Positions 9,932 to 62,257 of a stretch of DNA of 64,000 bases are shown in pieces. The notes under the pieces are model-generated. The model was not told the DNA's origin. It saw nothing but the letters and a program-made list of their open reading frames with translations, and ran no database searches. Source of the stretch: Iningainema tapete BLCC-T55. Lineage in GTDB: Bacteria; Cyanobacteriota; Cyanobacteriia; Cyanobacteriales; Nostocaceae. Where the stretch lies: positions 62,001 to 126,000 of the forward strand of contig NZ_JACXAE010000048.1 of assembly GCF_014698965.1 (NCBI RefSeq), in the 5' to 3' direction. Each line of letters starts with the position of its first letter. The first letter of the stretch is position 1. Position numbers and translations under genes: made by a program.

Positions 9932-12166
9932 ATGACTAAGGAAATGTTTGAGGGTGAGATACTTATAGCTCAAGCTTCACCGCCAGCAAATCAAACTATA
10001 TTTACAAATCAAACACCGAGCAATGCAAATGCAACCGACAACGCTGCTTATGAACTAGGTGTAAAGTTTCAGAGTGCTAAGGTTGGTAGAATTACCGCCA
10101 TTCGCTATTGGAAAGCGGCAAGTGAAACTGGCTCTCATTCTGGCAAAATCTGGTCATCAACTGGTAGTCTGTTGGCAAGTGTTACTTTTACGAACGAGAC
10201 AGCCTCCGGTTGGCAGCAGCAAGCACTTACCACTCCACTCAACATTCAAGCCAACACAACCTACGTAGTATCCGTCAACGTCAATAGCCATTTCCCGATT
10301 AGTTACAACGCATTATCAAGTTCAGTGGTTAACGGAGATCTTAGTACAATCGCTGACGGTAATAATGCAGTGTTTGGTAGTCCAGGTACTTTGCCAACTA
10401 ATTCCTACCAAAACAGTAACTATTTTCGCGACATAGTATTTGTTGTCAGTAGTACCATCTCTAAAGTAAGTGGTGATAATCAAACTGGTACGGCAGGAGC
10501 TGCTTTAGCTAACCCATTTGTAGTGAGAGTTCAAGACAGTGCTGGTAATCCCCAGTCAGGAGTTACAGTCAACTTTGCAGTTACTAGTGGTGGAGGATCG
10601 GTTTCACCTACTAGTGCGGTAACAGGTGCAAATGGTCAGGCTAGCACAGTGTTGACTCTGGGGACAACACCAGGTGTAGGTAATGGTGTAACGGCAACGG
10701 CTTCGGGTATAGGCAGTGTTAGCTTTAGTGCTTCATCTACTCCGGCGACTTCTAATGCTATTTATTTAGAAAACCAAAAACCAGGTACAACAAACTGGCG
10801 GATCACCAATCAAACTTACAATGAAATTGCCGCCTATGCAACAGCAACAAGTGTAAATAAGGGAGGTTCGCTGCCGATCAAAGTTTCTCTAGCAAATCCC
10901 GGACAATTCACAATTGATGTCTACCGCTTGGGTTACTACGGAGGTAATGGCGGTAGGCTGATATTAAGCAGCGGTGCTCTCAATGGAATTACTCAACCAG
11001 AATGTACAATTACTGACGAAACTACCAGACTTGTTGAGTGTGACTGGTCAACTTCTTACACTTTAGCCGTCGGCTCTGACTGGACTAGTGGGCTGTATAT
11101 TGCCAAGCTAACTGACAGTGGTACTGGTAAGCAAACACAAGTGTGGTTTGTCGTCCGTGATGATAGCAGCACTTCAGATATATTGTTCCAGAGCAGCTTT
11201 ACCACTTTCTTGGCTTACAGCAATACTGGTGGTTACAGCATGTACCCATTTAATAGTATTGATGGTCAAAGAGCGCTGAAACTTTCCTACGACCGACCAT
11301 TCTCGGAAACCACCACTCAGCCTTTTGAGTTTAACACCCTACTACGTTGGGAATACAACATGGCGCGGTGGTTAGAGTCCCAAAGTTATGATGTTACCTA
11401 CGTCACTAACATGGATGTCCACTCCAATCCGCAACTACTCGGTAAGCACAAAGTATTCTTATCAGTGGGACACGATGAGTACTGGTCGCTAGATGAGCGC
11501 AATAATGTTGAACAAGCTCGCGATTCTGGAGTCAACTTAGCATTTTTCTCTGCTAATAGTGCTTACTGGCGTGTGCGTTTTGAGAATGGTAGTGTTGGCG
11601 GAACCAACCGAGTAATGGTTTGCTACAAGAGTGCCGCCACAAGTGCTGAACCAACTACCAAGTTCCGTAACGTACTAAATAATCGTCCGGAAAGTGCCTT
11701 GCTAGGAGTGATGTACGTAGGTGATAAAGATATTGTCTACGCAGGGTTCGATTTTGTGGTGAAGAACAGTAGCGATTCTTACTACGCTAATACTAATCTG
11801 CAAGACGGTGATGTATTAAGTCAATTAGTAGGCTTTGAATGGGATAGAATCAATGCCAATGCATCCCCATCTGGGCTGGTGATTCTTGGTGAATCGCAGT
11901 TTCCCACATCGCAAAATCTAGATGCTACCGATCTAGAAGGTTTCCCCAGTGGAACCGATCCCCGGATTGCACATGCCGTTCGCTACACTGCGCCTAGTGG
12001 TGCAAAAGTCTTTTCCACTGGCTCGATTCAGTGGATGTGGGGACTGGATAGTGATGGTGTCAGTGGATTTCGCGAAGATATTCGTGCCAAGCAAATTGCT
12101 GTCAATGTCTTTGCCAGCATGGGAGCTAGACCCCAAACTCCCAGCGCTAACATTGTTGTGCCTTAA
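9932..12166 (+). CDS. DUF4082 / Ig-like / N,N-dimethylformamidase-large-subunit-like protein
   Basis: Multidomain protein of 744 aa. Residues about 16–170 look like DUF4082 (ELGVKFQSAKVGRITAIRYWKAASETGSHSGKIW). Residues about 175–275 form an invasin-type Ig-like domain (GTAGAALANPFVVRVQDSAGNPQSG). The rest resembles the large subunit of N,N-dimethylformamidase (FTIDVYRLGYYGG...VFLSVGHDEYW). There is no visible signal peptide, although these domains are usually extracellular. A paralog without the Ig-like domain lies at 15580. It probably forms a two-gene unit with the Tat-signal gene 31 nt downstream. Whether the C-terminal region has amidase activity is unknown. Confidence 0.78.
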   Translation: MTKEMFEGEILIAQASPPANQTIFTNQTPSNANATDNAAYELGVKFQSAKVGRITAIRYWKAASETGSHSGKIWSSTGSLLASVTFTNETASGWQQQALTTPLNIQANTTYVVSVNVNSHFPISYNALSSSVVNGDLSTIADGNNAVFGSPGTLPTNSYQNSNYFRDIVFVVSSTISKVSGDNQTGTAGAALANPFVVRVQDSAGNPQSGVTVNFAVTSGGGSVSPTSAVTGANGQASTVLTLGTTPGVGNGVTATASGIGSVSFSASSTPATSNAIYLENQKPGTTNWRITNQTYNEIAAYATATSVNKGGSLPIKVSLANPGQFTIDVYRLGYYGGNGGRLILSSGALNGITQPECTITDETTRLVECDWSTSYTLAVGSDWTSGLYIAKLTDSGTGKQTQVWFVVRDDSSTSDILFQSSFTTFLAYSNTGGYSMYPFNSIDGQRALKLSYDRPFSETTTQPFEFNTLLRWEYNMARWLESQSYDVTYVTNMDVHSNPQLLGKHKVFLSVGHDEYWSLDERNNVEQARDSGVNLAFFSANSAYWRVRFENGSVGGTNRVMVCYKSAATSAEPTTKFRNVLNNRPESALLGVMYVGDKDIVYAGFDFVVKNSSDSYYANTNLQDGDVLSQLVGFEWDRINANASPSGLVILGESQFPTSQNLDATDLEGFPSGTDPRIAHAVRYTAPSGAKVFSTGSIQWMWGLDSDGVSGFREDIRAKQIAVNVFASMGARPQTPSANIVVP

Positions 12167-12197
12167 GTAAGATTTTCAAGCAAGAGGAATGCAGGTT

Positions 12198-13187
12198 ATG
12201 AATTTGAGAATTAGACGTAGACGATTTGGGCAGTTAGCGATCGCCAGTGCCGCCACAGCTGCGATCGCCAACCTCGGTAGTAAAGCTGTTGCACAACAGT
12301 CTGAAGTCATTTTAGGGGTACGTCTGGGGAAAAGCAGCGGCGGCGGCGGCCTTTTAGGAGGTATAGTCTCTTCCATTACCGATCTCGCCAACAACACCCC
12401 AGCAATCACACTGATAACTTCCGACTTAGTATCTGGTAGAGAGATATCAGTCATTGATCTACCGTCAATAGCCGTTGATAACATCAGTACAGTCGTTGAA
12501 ACTGTAGCAAAAGCCGCTACTACCGCACTGAGAGAACGGATCACTGGTTTAACAACCTTATCAGATAACACATTAGTGATTGCCTCTGTCTCACAATCTC
12601 GCAATGGCAACGTCACGAGGTTAGTCTTTAGCGATCCTAGCTCTTCTAGACCTAAAAATAGTTTAAAACTCTCAGGATTTCCAACCAACAACAGTACGGT
12701 TGAAAGTATTTTGAGTACCAACGACAATAATCTCCTCAGTGTAATTAGTCTTAATAACGCCATTACACCTTTTGATTTTGCCTCTATTGATCCCAGAACA
12801 GGTAGAGTAACTCCAGGTGCAGAATTAGCTTTACCTGCTGTGGAATTAGATCGACGATACAGTAATCTTGCTAGCTCCCCAGATGGAACAATTTACGCTA
12901 CCACCCTTGGTAGAGAAGGTGTCACAACTTTGGTGCAAGTGGATTTGGAGAACAGATTAACAATTAATGGCAGAGGCAGAATTAATAGATTAGTGCCATT
13001 GAGCTTTGAAAATGAACCTTTAGAAAATGATTTGTTAAGCTTAGCCTTCTCTCGCTCTGGTCAACTTTACGCACTTGCTAATCCTAATTATGAGGCAACT
13101 AATTCTCTATTTAGTGTCGATCCTAGAAGCGGAGTGCTGACACTTTTGAGAAAATTTGATGCCTCCAAAATTACATTTCCCAAGTGA
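12198..13187 (+). CDS. Tat-signal exported protein, propeller-like, function unknown
   Basis: Protein of 329 aa. It starts with a twin-arginine signal (RRRRFGQLAIASAATAAIAN, then a cut near AVAQ), implying folded export. The mature part has repeated beta-rich segments (SSPDGTIYATTLGREG; LYALANPNYEATNSLFSVDP), suggesting a beta-propeller-like fold. I chose the ATG at 12198 rather than 12189 because the paralog at 17593 aligns from MNLRIRRRRFG and has a stop at the equivalent of the earlier ATG. Being duplicated together with the neighbouring DUF4082 protein suggests the two act together. Confidence 0.7.
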   Translation: MNLRIRRRRFGQLAIASAATAAIANLGSKAVAQQSEVILGVRLGKSSGGGGLLGGIVSSITDLANNTPAITLITSDLVSGREISVIDLPSIAVDNISTVVETVAKAATTALRERITGLTTLSDNTLVIASVSQSRNGNVTRLVFSDPSSSRPKNSLKLSGFPTNNSTVESILSTNDNNLLSVISLNNAITPFDFASIDPRTGRVTPGAELALPAVELDRRYSNLASSPDGTIYATTLGREGVTTLVQVDLENRLTINGRGRINRLVPLSFENEPLENDLLSLAFSRSGQLYALANPNYEATNSLFSVDPRSGVLTLLRKFDASKITFPK

Positions 13188-53501: not shown

Positions 53502-54023
53502 CTATGCGCCAAAAGTTTGTGTCCAATAAGGTTGATTTCCGCGAGCATATCCAATGCCAATTTCACGGTAATTGGGATTGAGTATGTTTGCACGATGCCC
53601 AGTACTATTCATCCAACCTCGCATAACATCTTGAGCGGAGGAATAACCTGATGCCACATTCTCTCCAGCTTGTCGGAAATTATAACCATGTTGCTTCATC
53701 CGATCAAATGGTCATGAACCGTTAGAGCCTTTGTGGCTCATAAAGTTATGCTTTGCCATATCGTTAGAATGTGCTTGCGCTGCTGCAGTTAATTGCGATT
53801 GAAGTCTGAGCGGTGATAATCCTGCTCTACCCCGTTCGCTATTAACAATATCGAGGACTTGTTGAATTACAGATATAGTTGCCAAGTCTATTGGTGCGGG
53901 ATCTGCAACATGAGAAGATGGAGTCGCCTGTAGAAAAATATTTTCAAGCTCAACGCTAAAGGGTTCACCAATAGCAGGCACAGATGCTGTTGAGTCTAAA
54001 TTAGAATCATTTGTTACAGTCAT
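53502..54023 (-). pseudogene. CAP/SCP-domain gene with in-frame TGA
   Basis: The frame starts at 54023 with a non-conserved N-terminus, then QQVLDIVNSERGRAGLSPLR, LTAAAQAHSNDMAKHNFMSH and KGSNGS. TGA at 53714–53712 interrupts it. The same frame goes on without loss: PFDRMKQHGYNFRQAGENVA, RGWMNSTGHRANILNPNYRE and GIGYARGNQPYWTQTFG. These are the normal CAP blocks with the histidine/glutamate sites split across the stop. A TCA to TGA change is the simplest explanation. The C-terminal piece could restart at 53699 but would not fold alone. Confidence 0.75.
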
Positions 54024-54421: not shown

Positions 54422-54541
54422 GCAATCCTATTTGATTTACAAACTTTTCATTTGGGCTGTTAACTGTTAACAGTTGACAGTCAACAGTTATCAGTCATCA
54501 GTCAAAACAGGACTGTTTGGGAATCATTTAGGAACGCTATA
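54418..54541. mobile_element. MITE-like element C, directly abutting element B
   Basis: The left end copies that of element B exactly over 27 bp (TATAGCAATCCTATTTGATT...). The right end ...CATTTAGGAACGCTATA pairs with it at 21 of 27 positions. The core (54457–54503) is made of GTTAACAGTTGACAG-type heptamers. The right end overlaps the last codons of the AraC regulator gene and supplies its TAG stop. Confidence 0.62.
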
Positions 54542-55046
54542 TACAATGTTTCTCTCTCCAGGTTTGAGGCGTAGTTTGGTGATAATTACGAAATTGACAA
54601 TAAAAATGATTTATATTTTGATAACCTACTTCTAACGCAATTTGATTAGCGGAATAATTAGTTTCTAAAAGCAAGTGTCTTGCTTGAGCTAATCGGCGTT
54701 CGATAATCCAGTCATTAACTGTTTTTCCGGTAAGTTTTTTTACTAAGTCAGTTAAGTAAGCTGAGGAATAACCTACGGCTTGAGCTACTTCTTTGAGGCT
54801 AATAGGTTGATGATAATTCAATTCAATAAACTCAAAAACCTCTTGCAGTCGAGGAATGGATGGAAATATAGATGTCTGAGTTTTTGATTTTTTACTTTCT
54901 TCAGCAGTAGGTAATTTATCTTGAGTGAGATGAACACGAACAAGACCATTTTCTATGGTAATAACCTCAAATCCTGCTGTCTCTAGACATTTCATTAAGA
55001 GATTTTTGGTTTTGGTTTCAGTGTCGTTGACTACAATATCTGTCAT
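54537..55046 (-). CDS. AraC-family regulator with a deleted receiver domain
   Basis: Protein of 169 aa. The C-terminal AraC domain (about 65–165) has both helix-turn-helix units (SLKEVAQAVGYSSAYLTDLV; SANQIALEVGYQNINHFYCQ). The N-terminus (DTETKTKNLLMKCLETAGF, then EVITIENGLV) matches the first third of a response-regulator receiver, but the segment with the phospho-acceptor Asp, Thr/Ser and Lys is missing; the text jumps from DKLP to a linker. It therefore cannot be regulated by phosphorylation. The final HCI and the stop lie in a MITE-like end. Confidence 0.78.
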   Translation of the reverse strand: MTDIVVNDTETKTKNLLMKCLETAGFEVITIENGLVRVHLTQDKLPTAEESKKSKTQTSIFPSIPRLQEVFEFIELNYHQPISLKEVAQAVGYSSAYLTDLVKKLTGKTVNDWIIERRLAQARHLLLETNYSANQIALEVGYQNINHFYCQFRNYHQTTPQTWREKHCI

Positions 55047-55278
55047 TTTATATCCTAATATTTAAGAGAGCGATCGCAGCTACGAAGCACGTTTTTCGTC
55101 TGCTTGTTTTAAGTTTTGAAATTCTACTTCTTAATAGGTGTGAGTACAGTTACCTTATGCGCTCTACATCCACATTCAGTATATTAATTATCTAATTTGG
55201 ATATTTTCTAAACTTTGCGGTATAATACTTTTAATCTGTAAGTTTTAATATTAGGTGTAGACATAAACATCAAGACTT

Positions 55279-55884
55279 ATGACGCGCCGTCGGATTTTGC
55301 AAGAGGGGCAATCCTACACATTTCGCTCCTATTTTGAGATGCCTTATGAGGCAGACGAAATATTGGCGGAATTGGGCTACGCATTGGTGAAAACTCGTCT
55401 TGAGTTACCGCGCACCAATCGTCAGTTAGAGCGTTTGGCAGAGTTACAACAGCGAATTGATGAATCTTTACCGCTTGTAAGTTTGAGCAGTGAGACAGCG
55501 CGACGTGAAACGCTTGTAGCACCAGCATTGCTGGAAGTTGCTCGGTATTGTCAATGCCAAATACGAATTGAGTACCCTTTGTCAGTAAATAACTGGCTCA
55601 AGGGCAATTTAGATTACTTTCTCAAACGTAATCCAGGTTTGCTGGTGGTTGAAGCAAAAAATGATGACTTAACACGAGGGTTTACACAGCTTGCGGTGGA
55701 GCTAATTGCCATAGCCGAAGTTGAAGAAGGTGATTTGTTTTATGGAGCTGTGACAATTGGTGATGCTTGGCGCTTTGGTAGGTTAGAAAAAACTCTTCAA
55801 CAAATTCTTCAGGATGTTTCGTTATATCGAATTCCCAATGATTTGGAAGATTTAATGAAGATTTTAGTAGGGATTGTGGAATGA
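55279..55884 (+). CDS. Hypothetical protein, possible PD-(D/E)XK-type fold
   Basis: This 201-aa protein shows a basic N-terminus (MTRRRILQEGQSYTFRSYFE), a helical middle and GNLDYFLKRNPGLLVVEAKN followed by DDLTRGFTQLAVELIAI. The D...xVVEAK arrangement resembles the PD-(D/E)XK nuclease core. Such single-domain proteins are widespread in cyanobacteria without known function. Nuclease activity is an inference. Confidence 0.55.
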   Translation: MTRRRILQEGQSYTFRSYFEMPYEADEILAELGYALVKTRLELPRTNRQLERLAELQQRIDESLPLVSLSSETARRETLVAPALLEVARYCQCQIRIEYPLSVNNWLKGNLDYFLKRNPGLLVVEAKNDDLTRGFTQLAVELIAIAEVEEGDLFYGAVTIGDAWRFGRLEKTLQQILQDVSLYRIPNDLEDLMKILVGIVE

Positions 55885-55896
55885 AGTCTTTTCTAT

Positions 55897-55935
55897 TCTA
55901 TACATCTGCTGCACTTGGTTTATTGAAATATTCCC
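55897..55935 (-). pseudogene. Remnant of a RelE-type module junction
   Basis: This 39-nt stretch (TCTATACATCTGCTGCACTT and following) matches, with few differences, the antitoxin-end/toxin-start junction at 61309–61345. No gene remains around it. It is a fossil of another copy of that module. Confidence 0.45.
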
Positions 55936-56095
55936 AACATACATCTACTACATTTACTGACTTGAGTAATTCTCCCCATTTTGTAACATCATTTAAAGTA
56001 AGCTGACACTGCCGCGAGTAATGAACTATACTTTTGGTAGCTTAAGCCCTATTGCTATCAGGATTGCTCTGTCTTAAATTTTTACTTCAGCTTTT

Positions 56096-56737
56096 GTGTC
56101 TACTATTTCTACTCTAACTAAACTTCAACAGTTGCGTCCGGGCGATCGCCTCAAGTATCACGGCGTGCAATGGGATGTCAAAGATTACAGCACCTACGAT
56201 GACGTGTATGGCTATGAAACCGCTGAGTGGTTGCTGCGATCCCGTCATGGGACAGAATACTACTTGCTACGAGAAGTTGACCCCCAAAATCCAGAAACAC
56301 TGGTAAATTGGTATCTTGCTGAAGAAGTTCAACAACCTAGAATATTCCAGCCCGATTCCCAAGAAAACATAGTCCCCGGTTTGTGGCAGGATATTCAAGG
56401 ACAAACAGAACCCTACCCTGAATTGCAAACCCTTGGCAGAGTCTATTTCTTTGAATCACAGACTTGGGGAAGTTATGAGGGAGAGGAGAGGAACACTCGC
56501 ATCACTTGGGACTATTGGGATAGAATGCACCATTGGAACTTAGCACTCGAAGCTTGGCCTAATAGGGAACTTTACGTTTACTTAACTAAAATGGTGAAGC
56601 CAGAAGATTTTTATGACATTGAGAAAGGGGTGGTGAAACATTCGTCTGGGCTAGCTAAATTTTTAGCCGCTAACTATCAGGTACTTCTGGCTTTTTCAAT
56701 GTTATGTGTGGGAATTTTAATGATGATCTTTGGATAA
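56096..56737 (+). CDS. DUF4178 domain membrane-anchored protein
   Basis: Protein of 213 aa with GTG start. Residues about 5–165 resemble DUF4178 (LQQLRPGDRLKYHGVQWDVK; TAEWLLRSRHGTEYYLLREV). A C-terminal membrane helix (YQVLLAFSMLCVGILMMIF) anchors it. DUF4178 genes are frequently neighbours of DUF350 and spermidine-synthase-like genes, as here. Function unknown; the next start is 8 nt after its stop. Confidence 0.72.
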   Translation: MSTISTLTKLQQLRPGDRLKYHGVQWDVKDYSTYDDVYGYETAEWLLRSRHGTEYYLLREVDPQNPETLVNWYLAEEVQQPRIFQPDSQENIVPGLWQDIQGQTEPYPELQTLGRVYFFESQTWGSYEGEERNTRITWDYWDRMHHWNLALEAWPNRELYVYLTKMVKPEDFYDIEKGVVKHSSGLAKFLAANYQVLLAFSMLCVGILMMIFG

Positions 56738-56744
56738 CCAAGAA

Positions 56745-58235
56745 ATGCCGACTTCCCTCTTTGTTGAACAGCATGATAATGGCATCGCCTTTTATATCAA
56801 TGGTGATTTGCAGTTTGATACCGCTGATGAGGCAATCTATCATGAGTATCTGGTTATCCCAGCGCTCGCTTTGGCAAGAGAACGATTTCCCCAGACAGAT
56901 TTGCGCGTTTTAATCTGTGGCGGTGGCGATGGATTAGCCGCTAGGGATGTCTTGTCTTGCGGTGTTAGCCAGATTGATTTAGTAGATTACAGCCCAGAGG
57001 TTTTATCCCTGGGAAGAACAGTATTTAAGCCATACAATGCAGGGAGTTTAGAGAGCGATCGCATCACCGTCTACACACAAGAAGCATTTGAATTTGCTTC
57101 AACTCTCCCAGACAATTCCTATCACGTTGTGATCTGCGATTTTACTTATCCCACTTGTTCAGAAGAAACAAGTATCTACAGTCGGGAATGGTTTCAACAA
57201 ATAAATCGAGTTCTGCATCCGGCTGGGGTGATTTGCACAAATGGCGTCTCCCCAGATAATTCCACAACAGGTTTTTGGTGTTTATATCAAACGCTGCTAG
57301 CATCTGGGTTGATGGCAAAACCGTTACAGCTATCTATCCCCTCATTTCGTCAGCATGGTTATGGCAATTGGGGCTTCTTTCTTGCCTCACCCCAGCCCAT
57401 TAGTAGATTTGAATTAGAGACTATTTCACTGCCCGATAATTTACAAGTACTTACTCGTGAGCAACTGTTTCAAGCTTTTGTGTTTAACAGTGCGATCGCT
57501 CAGGTTCGCGATCGTGTGATGATTCACACCCTAGATTGTCCTCAGTTATTTTATTACTTGCTCAATCCCACCTCACCATCAGGAGTCAGGAATTGTAGAG
57601 ACGTTGCATGCAACGTCTCTCAGGAGAATGAATTAACCAAAGAATCTGATCGTGACATTAATTTTCTAGATATTCAAGAAACAGGAACAGCACAAGTCGG
57701 AGCGCATGATTTACTCCAGTTAGAATCAGCAGCACAATTCTGGATAGAACAAATTTATCCCAACCAAGATCAAGACAATTCTCCGGATATGACTAGGCTG
57801 TTGCCAGTACGACATCGTTACCATAGCCCAAAAATGACAGCCGAATGGTTAGCGTATCTCAAGCAGTTATTAGCAGAAGTAGACGTATCCCGCTTATTGA
57901 CCACTATACTAGAACGATCACAAGAACTACCGCCGCAGATTGCCCAAGAACTCAAACAATTAGCTCAGAAGATTCGCTCTCAAGAGCCACTCTCAAAACT
58001 GCCAGACTCCGCCGCCAAATTTCTCATGATGCTTTCAGTCACCCTGTTAATGGCGAACTTAGTGACACCAGATGCCGTGTTTGCCAAAGGCTCCTATTCA
58101 GGTCATAGCGGTGGCTATTCGAGTGGCGATAGTAGCTATGATGGCGGTGGTAGTTGGAAAATGTTGGGGTTTTTGTTGACTACAGGAGGATTAATTTGGC
58201 TAGCATACCTATTCAACCGCCCAAAAGATGAATGA
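56745..58235 (+). CDS. Spermidine-synthase-like methyl-donor-fold protein with membrane tail
   Basis: Protein of 496 aa from the ATG at 56745 (a TTG at 56730 is an alternative overlapping the upstream stop). The core (about 1–270) has the aminopropyltransferase fold: QFDTADEAIYHEYLV, LICGGGDGLAARDV and VICDFTYP. A long C-terminal extension ends in a hydrophobic segment (FLMMLSVTLLMANLV), a Gly/Ser-rich stretch and a last helix. A GTAGAGACG palindrome sits in frame at 57595–57620 and encodes GVRNCRDVACNVSQ. The membrane tail suggests polyamine chemistry at the envelope, which is inference. Confidence 0.75.
   Translation: MPTSLFVEQHDNGIAFYINGDLQFDTADEAIYHEYLVIPALALARERFPQTDLRVLICGGGDGLAARDVLSCGVSQIDLVDYSPEVLSLGRTVFKPYNAGSLESDRITVYTQEAFEFASTLPDNSYHVVICDFTYPTCSEETSIYSREWFQQINRVLHPAGVICTNGVSPDNSTTGFWCLYQTLLASGLMAKPLQLSIPSFRQHGYGNWGFFLASPQPISRFELETISLPDNLQVLTREQLFQAFVFNSAIAQVRDRVMIHTLDCPQLFYYLLNPTSPSGVRNCRDVACNVSQENELTKESDRDINFLDIQETGTAQVGAHDLLQLESAAQFWIEQIYPNQDQDNSPDMTRLLPVRHRYHSPKMTAEWLAYLKQLLAEVDVSRLLTTILERSQELPPQIAQELKQLAQKIRSQEPLSKLPDSAAKFLMMLSVTLLMANLVTPDAVFAKGSYSGHSGGYSSGDSSYDGGGSWKMLGFLLTTGGLIWLAYLFNRPKDE
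57595..57620. repeat. GTAGAGACG palindrome inside the spermidine-synthase-like gene
   Basis: GTAGAGACG and CGTCTCT(C) surround TTGCATGCAA. The insertion keeps the frame and adds NCRDVACNVS to the protein, in a linker region. It is a member of the variable-core family. Confidence 0.8.
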
Positions 58236-59280
58236 GCAGCAAGGTTGTATGAATACAAATTACCTTGTGAAACAGGGTGTATTAAGGATTAGGGAATTAA
58301 ATTTATCCCAAAGCTATCTTTGGGACTCGCTTTTACAAACTGCACCAAGTGGATGCTTTATGCAGAGTTGGACTTGGGCAGATTTTAAGGAATTGGAGGG
58401 ATATAAGACCTTTAGATATGGTTTATTTTTAAATGAAGAATTAGTGGGAGGATGTATTTTTTATTTATATCCTAATCCTAGTAAAGCGAATTTATTAATT
58501 GCTCCCGGTGGTCCTTTATTACCAGCTAATTACCCTGAGCAAGGGATGCAGTTGTTATTAGAACTCGCAAATGCTATAGCTGTTAGGGGAGCGATCGCTT
58601 TACGAATTGAACCATTATGGACTGAAAAACCCGATTGTCTCACTGGTTTTGTCCGCGCTCCAGTTGATTTATTACCATCAGAAACTCTGTTAATTGACTT
58701 GCGCCCAGCAGAAAGCAAAATATTAGCCGCAATGAAGCCAAAAGGACGATACAATCTACGGTTAAGTTGGCGCTATGGTGTGAAAACAGAATTTAGGAGT
58801 GACTCCCAGGCGATACCCTTATTTTACGATTTGTTTTGGGAAACGGTACAACGTCAGCAGTTTTTTGGCGAACCCTACGGGTTTTTCATTAACTTGTGCC
58901 AGACGTTATTTCCAGCGTTCATGGCAGAAATTGGTTTAGCCAGTTGGCAAGGGCAGATACTGGCGGCAATCTTGGTGGTGTATTGGGGCGATCGTGCTAC
59001 CTATTTATATGGTGGACGTAGTTTGTCACACCCACAAGTCATGGCAACTTACTCATTGCACTGGGCGGCGATGCAACGGGCAAGGGCGAGGGGTTATGTA
59101 ACTTATGATTTCTACGGTTTTACCCGTAACCCCGATCATGCCTATGCTAAATTTTCCCAGTTTAAAAGCCAGTTTGGGGGTGTGCCAGTCACGACTATTG
59201 GCGCTCATGATTACTTTTTTTACGATCAACTGGCTGATACATTAATTGGCTTGTTCCGACTTGCAGGAGAAGGCAAATGA
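58228..59280 (+). CDS. FemAB/GNAT-type aminoacyltransferase
   Basis: This 350-aa protein has the duplicated-GNAT look of FemABX peptidyltransferases: CFMQSWTWADFKELEGYKTF, LLIAPGGPLL, MKPKGRYNLRLSWRYGVKTE and YVTYDFYGFTRNPDHAYAKF. FemABX enzymes attach amino acids to peptidoglycan precursors using aminoacyl-tRNA. Here it lies in an operon with polyamine-type genes, so another acceptor is possible. The ATG overlaps the preceding stop (58233–58235); an alternative start is 58249. It overlaps the next gene by 4 nt. Confidence 0.82.
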   Translation: MNEQQGCMNTNYLVKQGVLRIRELNLSQSYLWDSLLQTAPSGCFMQSWTWADFKELEGYKTFRYGLFLNEELVGGCIFYLYPNPSKANLLIAPGGPLLPANYPEQGMQLLLELANAIAVRGAIALRIEPLWTEKPDCLTGFVRAPVDLLPSETLLIDLRPAESKILAAMKPKGRYNLRLSWRYGVKTEFRSDSQAIPLFYDLFWETVQRQQFFGEPYGFFINLCQTLFPAFMAEIGLASWQGQILAAILVVYWGDRATYLYGGRSLSHPQVMATYSLHWAAMQRARARGYVTYDFYGFTRNPDHAYAKFSQFKSQFGGVPVTTIGAHDYFFYDQLADTLIGLFRLAGEGK

Positions 59281-60149
59281 ACCAGGTGCTACTGAATGGA
59301 TTTAATCAGTTGGGATTGATTGTGTTGGAGCTAGCTGTGGGTTTTGGCTTGTTTTGGCTAGGACAGTTTGCTTATCAAAAGCTGTTCCGGCGTCGGATGG
59401 AGCTAAACCTGGAACTGTTTGTTAGGGATAATCCAGCTGTTGCGATCGCTCTTGTGGGCTACTACTTCGGCATTGTAATTGCCTTGGGTGGTGTTTTAGG
59501 TCAAAGCGCAGCCAATGTGCAAGATAAATTGCTAAACTTGGCAACCTATGGCGCAACGGTGATTTTGTTTATGTTGGCTGGGGCTTGGGTAGGCGATCGG
59601 TTAATTTTGCGCTGCTTCGAGTGCAAGCGTGAAATTATCCAAAACCGCAACGTCGGCGCTGCTACTGTAGAAGCGGGCAACCACATCGCCGACGGGCTGA
59701 TTCTTAATGCCGCTTTGGCTGGAGAAAGCGGCAGTTGGCTTGTAGGGCTGTTGTGTTGGCTAATCGGCTTAGGCGTACTCGTTTTAGTCAGTGTAGTTTA
59801 TCCCCGCGTTACTAAGTACGATGTGTTCGGTGAAATACAAAAGCGCCAGAACCTAGCTGCTGGCGTGGCGCTAGCAGGTTTACTAATTGCTACAGGCAAC
59901 ATCGTCCGAGTCGCTTTTGCTGCCGAATATCAAAACTGGCTAGTCAGTTTTACTCAGTATGGGTTGGTACTACTATTTTGCTTAGGCTCACTTATAGCGA
60001 TTCGATGGCTAGCAGATTTGATTTTAGTTCCAGGAGTCAAAATTTCTGATGAAATTGTGCATCAAGAAGTTCCAAATTTTGGTGCAGGTTTGATTGAAGC
60101 GTTTGCTTATATTGCTGCCTCATTTCTGATTGCTTGGTGCTTCGCTTAA
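59277..60149 (+). CDS. DUF350 membrane protein
   Basis: This 290-aa protein has two DUF350 halves, each with about three or four helices (AVAIALVGYYFGIVIALGGV; QNLAAGVALAGLLIATGNIV). The family occurs with polyamine-type and glutathionylspermidine-type genes (for example YjfL near YjfC in E. coli). It probably forms a membrane component of the local envelope modification system. It ends the plus-strand operon. Confidence 0.8.
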   Translation: MNQVLLNGFNQLGLIVLELAVGFGLFWLGQFAYQKLFRRRMELNLELFVRDNPAVAIALVGYYFGIVIALGGVLGQSAANVQDKLLNLATYGATVILFMLAGAWVGDRLILRCFECKREIIQNRNVGAATVEAGNHIADGLILNAALAGESGSWLVGLLCWLIGLGVLVLVSVVYPRVTKYDVFGEIQKRQNLAAGVALAGLLIATGNIVRVAFAAEYQNWLVSFTQYGLVLLFCLGSLIAIRWLADLILVPGVKISDEIVHQEVPNFGAGLIEAFAYIAASFLIAWCFA

Positions 60150-60183
60150 CTAGTAAGCGCGTAAGTCCCCGCCATTGGGTACT

Positions 60184-60543
60184 TCACCCAGTGATACATA
60201 AATAGTTCCAACGCTCAATACTATCATCCCCACTAAGTTGAAGAGCCAGTATTTTAGCAAGAAGTTTAGCCTTTTCTTGATTGGATTGTTGATAATCACA
60301 CACATGAATATCAATTGTTACTTTTTCTTCTTCAGGCCAAAAGTGTAATGCTACATGAGATTCTTTAAGTAAGAGAACAGCAGAAATACCCTGTGGCACA
60401 AATGAAAAAGAAACTGCACTGACGGGAGTAAGTTCAGCACTTTTAGCAGCAGTTTTTAAAAAAGTTATGAAATCTACTTCTGTCCATTCAAAGATAGCTA
60501 CAGAAGCAGTCAAAATCGCTGAAAAATGATGGGTTATAATCAC
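60184..60543 (-). CDS. speD: S-adenosylmethionine decarboxylase (class 1B proenzyme)
   Basis: Protein of 119 aa with a GTG start that overlaps the TGA of the pseudogene upstream. The self-cleavage site E61-S62-H63 (LKESHVALHFWPEEE), the processing residue H67 and C82 in DIHVCD are all in the right places for SpeD. Cleavage yields a pyruvoyl-dependent enzyme that makes decarboxylated AdoMet, the aminopropyl donor. It therefore fits the spermidine-synthase-like gene of the convergent operon. Confidence 0.83.
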   Translation of the reverse strand: MIITHHFSAILTASVAIFEWTEVDFITFLKTAAKSAELTPVSAVSFSFVPQGISAVLLLKESHVALHFWPEEEKVTIDIHVCDYQQSNQEKAKLLAKILALQLSGDDSIERWNYLCITG

Positions 60544-61026
60544 TTACAACTTATTGTAACGTATATAATTTTATATGTTTTGATGCGATCGCGCAGCGTC
60601 TCCGCAGGAGAATCGCCATCAACCCCGGAATGCAACAAACAGTTAAATAATTCCTCAATGCCATCTTCATCACTAACATCAAAGTCCTTTGACAGATAAC
60701 TAATCTTTTCAATCCCAATAGAATCAAAGTATTGCCATAAACGCCATATATCAAAAGCTTTTGGATATTCAGACATCCCAACATGGACATCAACTACCTT
60801 GCCTGATTTCTGTACCGTAAAGCAAATACCTACTCCATGTCGCGCTCAACTTCCATTCTTCTCCTAGCGCCCAGATATAGCCAGAGCGTGGAGAATCAAG
60901 CAAAAATTTCCAGTCTGTTATCTGAGAAAATGTTTCACGAAATGTTTTTAGCACACGGTTTTGTATTTCTACAAACTCTATTCGTATTGCAACTACGTCT
61001 TTTCCATGATAGTGGATATTTTGCAT
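60540..61026 (-). pseudogene. Frameshifted duplicate of the gene at 61742
   Basis: The first frame (from 61026) reads FVEIQNRVLKTFRETFSQIT, DWKFLLDSPRSGYIWALGEE and then turns into unrelated sequence. The second frame (from 60776) reads MSEYPKAFDIWRLWQYFDSI and ISYLSKDFDVSDEDGIEELF. Both align with the intact 171-aa paralog. One extra base near 60842–60850 causes the shift. A dispersed repeat with GCGCAGCGTCTCCGCAGGAG follows near 60590 and replaces the original C-terminus. Confidence 0.78.
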
Positions 61027-61741: not shown

Positions 61742-62257
61742 TTAACGTACCCCAGAGTTTTCATCACTCAAAGCTTCTATCTGCCCTGGCACTGCCGCTT
61801 CAGTACCTGGTACTGGCATAAATGTATATAACTTTCTCTGCTCTGACTCCGCAATCAAACCATCTTGCAACAAACAGTTAAATAATTCCTCAATGCCATC
61901 TTCATCAGTGACATCAAAATCCTTTGAGAGATGACCGATTTTTTCAATACCAATTGACTCAAAGTATTGGCATAAACGCCATACATCAAAAGCTGTTGGA
62001 TATTCAGACATCCCAACATGGACATCAACTACCTTTCCTGATTTCTGTCCGGTAAAGCAAATACCTACTCCATGTCGCTGAAACTTCCATTCTTCATTCT
62101 GCGCTAAGATGTACCCAGACCGTGGAGAATCGAGTAAATATTTCCAGTCTATTATCTGGGAATATTTTTCACGAAACGCCTTTAGGAGACTGTTTTGTAT
62201 TTCTATAAACTCTAGAATAATTGCAACTACATCTACGCTTCTGGTTGGAGATTTCAT
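61742..62257 (-). CDS. Hypothetical protein paired with a ParB-like gene
   Basis: This 171-aa soluble protein (VVAIILEFIEIQNSLLKAFR; GKVVDVHVGMSEYPTAFDVW; IGHLSKDFDVTDEDGIEELF) matches no family I recognise. It starts 18 nt after the ParB-like gene on the same strand. A duplicate at 60540–61026 is frameshifted. The tail is variable (VPGTEAAVPGQIEALSDE). Confidence 0.6.
   Translation of the reverse strand: MKSPTRSVDVVAIILEFIEIQNSLLKAFREKYSQIIDWKYLLDSPRSGYILAQNEEWKFQRHGVGICFTGQKSGKVVDVHVGMSEYPTAFDVWRLCQYFESIGIEKIGHLSKDFDVTDEDGIEELFNCLLQDGLIAESEQRKLYTFMPVPGTEAAVPGQIEALSDENSGVR

Follow-up and report, generated by a model that had tools for sequence, protein, structure and literature searches.

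In the genome of the cyanobacterium Iningainema tapete BLCC-T55 (9.5 Mb), we analysed a stretch of 64,000 nucleotides (contig NZ_JACXAE010000048.1, positions 62,001 to 126,000; the window, in which the coordinates below are counted) and in it a set of five genes. Four plus-strand genes at 56096-60149 encode a DUF4178 protein, an aminopropyltransferase-like protein (here SPE), a FemAB-like protein and a DUF350 protein with two repeats, and a convergent gene at 60184-60543 encodes SpeD, an S-adenosylmethionine decarboxylase. The chemistry of this set is likely to be something other than spermidine synthesis; an altered, membrane-tethered relative of the spermidine synthase SpeE, a dedicated SpeD and a cell-wall-type ligase probably attach polyamine-like groups to something besides ordinary polyamines. 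The fuller explanation, to which we give about an even chance, is a dedicated, membrane-associated module for aminopropyl transfer that uses an amine other than putrescine as acceptor, with the FemAB-like enzyme acting on the same target.

The DUF4178 protein (56096-56737, plus strand, 213 residues) matches PF13785 at 5e-14. It is followed on the same strand by SPE (56730-58235, 501 residues), which matches Spermine_synth (PF01564) over residues 36-210 at 5e-19, by the FemAB-like aminoacyl-transferase (58228-59280, 350 residues; PF02388, 2e-29) and by the DUF350 protein (59277-60149, 290 residues; PF03994, 7e-44, in two stretches). SpeD, resembling class 1b enzymes (60184-60543, minus strand, 119 residues), matches AdoMet_dc (PF02675) at 3e-18. 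An earlier reading of this DNA from sequence only had given the same positions and gene names, and both were right: all five open reading frames are in place, and each product is over the cut-off of its Pfam family. It had also noted tight overlaps of 8 and 4 nucleotides, and the first overlap depends on the start of SPE. With a TTG start at 56730 the successive overlaps are 8, 8 and 4 nucleotides, but with the alternative in-frame ATG at 56745, whose equivalent is used by 2 of the 4 SPE relatives compared, the first junction becomes a gap of 7 nucleotides. The SpeD gene has a GTG start codon and ends 34 nucleotides from the stop of the DUF350 gene.

Judged by the SPE protein, the relatives of the host genome are cyanobacteria. 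A search of genome contigs with an alignment of five SPE sequences returned 27 loci (24 cyanobacterial), to which two further genomes were added, making 26 cyanobacterial loci besides the window; many of these are related, so that the locus counts are not independent events. The genes for DUF4178, SPE and FemAB keep the same order and strand in all 26, and the order continues into DUF350 in 24; this linkage is beyond chance. SpeD is linked in 21 of the 26, lying convergent and downstream as in the window in 12 and codirectional and upstream in 9. Of 175 genomes of the phylum, seven have a FemAB orthologue (E at most 1e-20), and these are exactly the seven with an SPE bearing the C-terminal tail described below (tailed SPE). 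Non-canonical SpeE, counted as matches of at least 80 bits to the SPE query, occurs in 23 genomes and DUF350, counted over the Pfam cut-off, also in 23, with 20 genomes common to both; 19 of the 21 genomes with DUF4178 carry non-canonical SpeE as well. Three of the 23 non-canonical SpeE genomes thus lack DUF350 and four lack DUF4178, the latter including two with tailed SPE, G053 and G044. By a hypergeometric test that ignores phylogeny, co-occurrence with non-canonical SpeE has a probability of 3e-20 for DUF350 and 1e-19 for DUF4178. The sequence-only reading had taken the genes for one set, an idea that independent occurrence in most genomes would have spoken against; phylogenetic profiling finds no independent occurrence, and the idea stands. 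We conclude that the gene set is genuine, conserved and coupled in function.

SPE consists of a SpeE-fold domain (approximately residues 10-280), a poorly modelled linker, a hydrophobic helix, a loop rich in Gly, Ser and Tyr, and a second hydrophobic helix. Its first 280 residues were modelled as a SpeE fold with pLDDT mostly about 90 or above, and the 50 Foldseek matches listed are all spermidine or polyamine synthases, at target-normalised TM-scores of 0.66-0.78. The SPE query has one match in its own genome. A tree was built from 60 of 61 extracted SpeE-domain rows, L034 being dropped for want of a standard start; the tree also leaves out L031, a truncated match, and any match that had no locus. 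It is to be read as unrooted; L060 and L095 sit on long branches, and the program warns that such branches meet. Thirteen canonical SpeE are split from all other SpeE domains at 100/100, and the 26 cyanobacterial SPE group at 99/97, joined at 100/100 by two tailed proteins from the same phylum but not the window's class (L059 and L060). On the SPE side of the split, yet not as one clade, fall 19 fusion proteins that we label 7TM-SpeE on the basis of an N-terminal extension and the description in Ravi 2024 (PMC11237479). The score against PRK03612 (NF002956), the best NCBIfam match of SPE, was considered as proof of kinship to 7TM-SpeE and rejected; canonical-size cyanobacterial SpeE equal it (197 bits for that of G070 versus 188 for the window SPE), and the kinship therefore rests on the tree.

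The acceptor site of SPE is altered. We take the Asp pair of the DxxDP motif, Tyr 206 and Gln 171 to be acceptor-site positions in the human and T. maritima enzymes, with Asp173, Asp176 and Tyr241 as the presumed human counterparts. All 28 SPE retain the YHE motif, GGGDG and D137, which is the first Asp of DxxDP. The second Asp, present in 13/13 canonical SpeE and 19/19 7TM-SpeE, is found in none of the 28, and residue 171, which is Gln in the same 13 and 19 proteins, is Asn in every SPE. Phe replaces Tyr at residue 206 in all 47 non-canonical proteins, the 28 SPE included. Since the second acceptor Asp is lost throughout, SPE is unlikely, judging from its residues, to make spermidine, including the soluble spermidine that the sequence-only reading had set against its own proposal, and putrescine would be an unlikely acceptor.

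Two explanations can be weighed at this point. An ordinary spermidine synthase operon with passenger genes would have the SpeE fold and the adjoining SpeD, but SPE lies off the canonical side of the tree (100/100), its acceptor site is altered, and the linkage of FemAB, DUF350 and DUF4178 is far above chance (phylogeny ignored); we consider such an operon very improbable. Alternatively, SPE could be a sensor that binds decarboxylated S-adenosylmethionine (dcAdoMet), or a pseudoenzyme, in an operon forming a membrane-stress module that reads methionine or polyamine state. Loss of the second acceptor Asp in 28/28 agrees with this, as do the sister loci L065 and L076 with their PspA or band-7 proteins, but the invariance of the first Asp, GGGDG and YHE and the presence of SpeD in 24 of 24 cluster genomes suit consumption of dcAdoMet, and a sensor seems improbable.

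That SpeD is a regular member of the set is apparent from its distribution. It is the single PF02675 match in the host genome and was found in all 24 cluster genomes examined. SPE is the sole SpeE-family gene in 22 of 24 cluster genomes (a PF01564 count that excluded the window's genome, G022, G053, G044 and G074), and exactly these 22 carry a divergent, cluster-type SpeD, which in three of them is on a contig other than that of SPE. The other two (L038 and L054) combine a SpeD of the canonical type with an additional, canonical-size SpeE, the genome of L054 having four SpeE-family matches. Because the 22 genomes have no canonical SpeE for SpeD to feed, its product should go to the altered, membrane-tethered SPE. 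Within the window's own family, 6 of 24 sampled genomes have SpeD, namely four cluster genomes and G091 and G174, while neither SpeD nor any SPE match was found in the other 18. In a quick tree one branch (SH-aLRT 100) separates the cluster SpeD from 9 SpeD of the phylum with higher scores. All 22 cluster SpeD retain the catalytic Ser, His and Cys (S62, H67 and C82), corresponding to S63, H68 and C83 given for T. maritima AdoMetDC in PMC10407285. Three genomes, G198 (= G060), G186 and G193, have a second, very weak SpeD-like gene besides the cluster SpeD, in frames of 123-124 residues scoring 22-25 bits. At G010:C43 and G170:C1, a SpeD match and a SpeE match are close neighbours in open frames of equal length (386 and 470 residues), which suggests natural SpeD-SpeE fusions.

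SPE might also make a soluble polyamine from some other acceptor, likeliest homospermidine, which would yield N1-aminopropylhomospermidine and leave FemAB and DUF350 to unrelated or downstream steps. A gene of the deoxyhypusine synthase family (PF01916) is present in 21 of 25 cluster genomes, including that of the window, and GGGDG and the first Asp of SPE are intact. Homospermidine synthesis by a deoxyhypusine synthase homologue has been reported for Anabaena, and some bacterial aminopropyltransferases make N1-aminopropylhomospermidine (PMC11107197). PF01916 is missing, however, from 4 of the 25 genomes, the second acceptor Asp is lost, and a soluble product needs neither a conserved tail nor strict linkage to FemAB. 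We judge this explanation to be unlikely.

The tail of SPE is conserved too. A PDxx[FY][AG]KG pattern is present in 29/29 tailed SPE, window included (PDAVFAKG, residues 447-454, encoded at 58068-58091), and sits after the first hydrophobic helix of the tail; the motif is, by inference from its residues, similar to a signal peptidase I site. The stretch following KG is rich in Gly, Ser, Tyr and Thr (34-71% of 35 residues), and after it comes a second hydrophobic segment or, in L059 and L060, a further segment (384-393 residues beyond KG). The membrane tail that the sequence-only reading had seen on the synthase-like protein is thus borne out as a conserved feature. In these last two loci (L059:5592-8234; L060:7761-10883, minus) the tailed SPE is followed by FemAB, and in L060 by a half-size DUF350 as well.

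A FemAB profile compared with the PDB matched best 6snr, a lipid II:glycine glycyltransferase (E 5e-30), and then FemX. The Phe-Lys pair F312-K313 is invariant in 29/29 FemAB and aligns with the FK pair of 6snr; its lysine we take to be the catalytic one in FemX. FemAB enzymes draw amino acids from aminoacyl-tRNA. The cluster enzyme shares the Pfam family and FK motif of FemABX, but it sits in an aminopropyltransferase operon and scores below the NCBIfam equivalog cut-offs. The sequence-only reading had proposed that an aminopropyl or polyamine group is placed on lipid or peptidoglycan precursors, with FemAB acting on lipid II like FemX. The structural matches do include enzymes named for lipid II and for UDP-MurNAc-pentapeptide, the SPE tail is hydrophobic and DUF350 is a membrane family. 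An aminoacyl-tRNA-dependent peptide synthase is also among the matches, however, and the fold therefore does not fix the acceptor. To our knowledge, cyanobacterial membranes have no amino-headgroup phospholipids, so a lipid acceptor would first have to be made. Such an envelope-precursor target strikes us as unlikely.

The DUF350 protein scores 149.6 bits against PF03994 in two stretches, and these are the sole two matches in the genome. At L051 (Sphaerospermopsis kisseleviana NIES-73, 11455-12841), only the second DUF350 half was matched after FemAB (query residues 173-289), and the first repeat seems to have been lost. The AlphaFold2 model of the DUF4178 protein (pLDDT 88.5) has a beta-rich domain, with strands over residues 18-176, and a single C-terminal helix (184-212) that is probably a membrane helix. 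We tried to read its function from the fold and dropped the attempt, as this good model matched no PDB fold at E below 0.001.

Among known systems the cluster is best filed with the 7TM-SpeE/DUF350/DUF4178 operons, as a variant of them and not as a spermidine synthase operon. Li in 2019 reportedly described linkage of AdoMetDC with MFS-SpdSyn, and thousands of SpeD genes adjoining membrane-fused SpeE where spermidine is lacking. Ravi 2024 (PMC11237479) has already described PspA operons that include 7TM-SpeE, DUF350 and DUF4178 and, citing Li 2019, suggests "aminopropylation of other substrates"; the claim of the sequence-only reading that its chemistry had not been described for such clusters was to that extent overstated. 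FemAB is absent from that text (PMC11237479). Our literature search found no paper pairing FemAB with DUF350 or with an aminopropyltransferase, and none besides Ravi 2024 (PMC11237479) that names DUF4178. This kind of operon is thus already known; what looks new here is the presence of FemAB, of the tail at the C-terminus of SPE and of the dedicated SpeD.

The 7TM-SpeE operons have DUF350, DUF4178 and SpeD in common with the window, and their SpeE-like domain falls on the SPE side of the split in the tree. Examples, which agree with the description in Ravi 2024 (PMC11237479), are L065, with PspA, DUF4178, DUF350 and 7TM-SpeE; L076, with a band-7 protein, two DUF4178 and 7TM-SpeE, and a DUF350 match at the same place; and L056, from the Bacteroidota, with two DUF4178, 7TM-SpeE and a short DUF350-like frame recognized by eye. 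In the 7TM-SpeE proteins the SpeE match begins at residues 228-322, whereas in cyanobacterial SPE it begins within about 25 residues of the N-terminus; SPE has no N-terminal membrane extension and carries the C-terminal tail instead. SPE has also lost the second acceptor Asp that all 19 7TM-SpeE keep, and its cluster adds FemAB and a divergent SpeD of its own. Compared with the operons of PspA and a CesT/Tir-like chaperone, neither protein was found among the eight window proteins scanned (54537-61026; the 26 other loci were not searched), and the small protein ending in G-x-GK discussed below is absent. With canonical spermidine and thermospermine synthases SPE shares the fold, GGGDG and YHE, differing in its acceptor residues, its place in the tree and its tail.

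A second comparison is with the E. coli yjfIJKLMC and ygiBC genes. By annotation, the former encode the PspA-like YjfJ, the DUF350 protein YjfL, the DUF1190 protein YjfM and YjfC, a peptide--spermidine ligase; the DUF1190 proteins YjfM and YgiB end in Gly-Gly. Pederick in 2023 is said to be the source of the peptide-spermidine ligase activity of YjfC and YgiC. These systems have in common with the cluster a DUF350 membrane protein, polyamine chemistry and an enzyme forming amide bonds, but they use an ATP-grasp ligase where the cluster has FemAB, and spermidine itself is the donor. The corresponding ligase family (PF03738) was considered as a further partner in the cluster and discarded, being present in just 1 of the 29 tailed-SPE genomes searched.

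Starting from the observed gene set, its order and co-occurrence (SpeD included), the altered acceptor site and the position in the tree, we infer a catalytic activity, an acceptor, a FemAB donor, a topology and an envelope role for the proposed aminopropyl-transfer module as follows. SpeD would decarboxylate S-adenosylmethionine, and SPE, tethered to the membrane through its C-terminal tail, would transfer the aminopropyl group to an amine other than putrescine, probably in a protein anchored in the membrane or in some other part of the envelope. The FemAB-like enzyme would join an amino acid to the same target by an amide bond, or prepare that target; it may stand in for the ATP-grasp peptide-spermidine ligase, or for the small G-x-GK protein, of the sister systems. 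DUF350 and DUF4178 would be the partners common to PspA-linked polyamine operons.

Several observations weigh against this explanation. Loss of the second Asp could mean lost activity, and not a new acceptor. The catalytic domain presumably lies in the cytosol, and an acceptor outside the cytoplasm would then need to receive its group ahead of export. The model of the tail has low confidence (pLDDT 26-66 in blocks beyond residue 420). The window SpeD falls under the TIGR03330 cut-off (66.3 versus 75.65 bits), and the residue before E71 is Pro in 15 of 22 cluster SpeD, window included, and Thr or Ser in the other 7; PMC10407285 names a Pro in this region, which we infer to be this one, as distinguishing AdoMetDC from arginine decarboxylases. 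Among the 26 loci, SpeD is unlinked in five, and DUF350 was not found adjoining FemAB in two (L046 and L054). Finally, DUF4178 was not found in G053 and G044, tailed-SPE genomes outside the window's class, whose SpeD belongs to the high-scoring type and lies on a contig other than that of SPE; thus, DUF4178 and the special SpeD are not essential to the combination of SPE and FemAB.

For the sister systems a candidate substrate can be named. Upstream of many 7TM-SpeE genes are small proteins, mostly of 60-98 residues, with a hydrophobic N-terminus, a Gly/Ser/Tyr-rich middle and a C-terminal G-x-GK (for example, GGGPGAGK). They occur in 10 of the first 19 7TM-SpeE loci (L065-L070 and L072-L075), in which the pattern was found post hoc, and are absent from the other 9, including the three from other phyla. 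Such endings were seen in 10 of 52 small open reading frames just upstream, versus 0 of 1280 elsewhere in these 19 loci. In new loci the protein was present in 22 of 28 from cyanobacteria (L097-L126, from the NF002956 search; L104 and L111 were dropped beforehand, their genomes being already in the first set) and, under the same pattern and length limits, in 10 of 30 from Myxococcota (L127-L156), the latter count rising to 15 with lengths up to 250 residues and to 17 with a looser pattern as well. As controls, exchanging the final residue for each of the 19 others left 0-5 matching loci per set, and 1 of 13 canonical SpeE loci also matched. Related genomes are among those counted, so that these figures do not stand for independent events. 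The four members scanned matched no Pfam family, and a literature search, judged by titles and the openings of abstracts, turned up no paper on aminopropylation of such proteins. We speculate that the G-x-GK protein is a substrate whose terminal lysine is aminopropylated; the enzyme being cytosolic, it would have to be modified before export, a topological problem. As a member of the window-type cluster this protein was rejected: among 2387 small open reading frames from the window and 28 loci only 2 fit the pattern, each of them kilobases off and unlike the family.

A wider reading, unlikely in our estimation, joins the three systems as one broad class of bacterial operons that builds polyamine-like tails on small membrane-anchored proteins, including by lysine aminopropylation by a SpeE relative. 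In E. coli this would involve the peptide-spermidine ligation reported for the ATP-grasp enzymes, and the DUF1190 proteins encoded nearby, which end in Gly-Gly; in the 7TM-SpeE operons the SpeE domain would aminopropylate the gene-encoded C-terminal lysine of the G-x-GK protein. In the window the target would be fused into the tail of the synthase, as the lysine of PDxx[FY][AG]KG beside the Gly/Ser/Tyr-rich stretch, which signal-peptidase-like cleavage could expose and to which FemAB would add an amino acid. If true, lysine aminopropylation by a relative of spermidine synthase would be a new protein modification. Spermidine synthesis is the annotated role of many SpeD and SpeE-like genes in bacteria. 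With the cluster, the target of an aminopropyltransferase that does not make spermidine becomes directly testable in cultured cyanobacteria, and for the sister systems the G-x-GK proteins are a tangible candidate substrate.

Near the five genes, similar minus-strand open reading frames beside SpeD, at 60540-61026 and 61742-62257, look by eye like repeated, partly degraded gene copies. On the other side of the cluster, two adjoining minus-strand frames at 53502-54023, in the same reading frame, look like one CAP/SCP-like gene (a family name given by eye) split by a stop.

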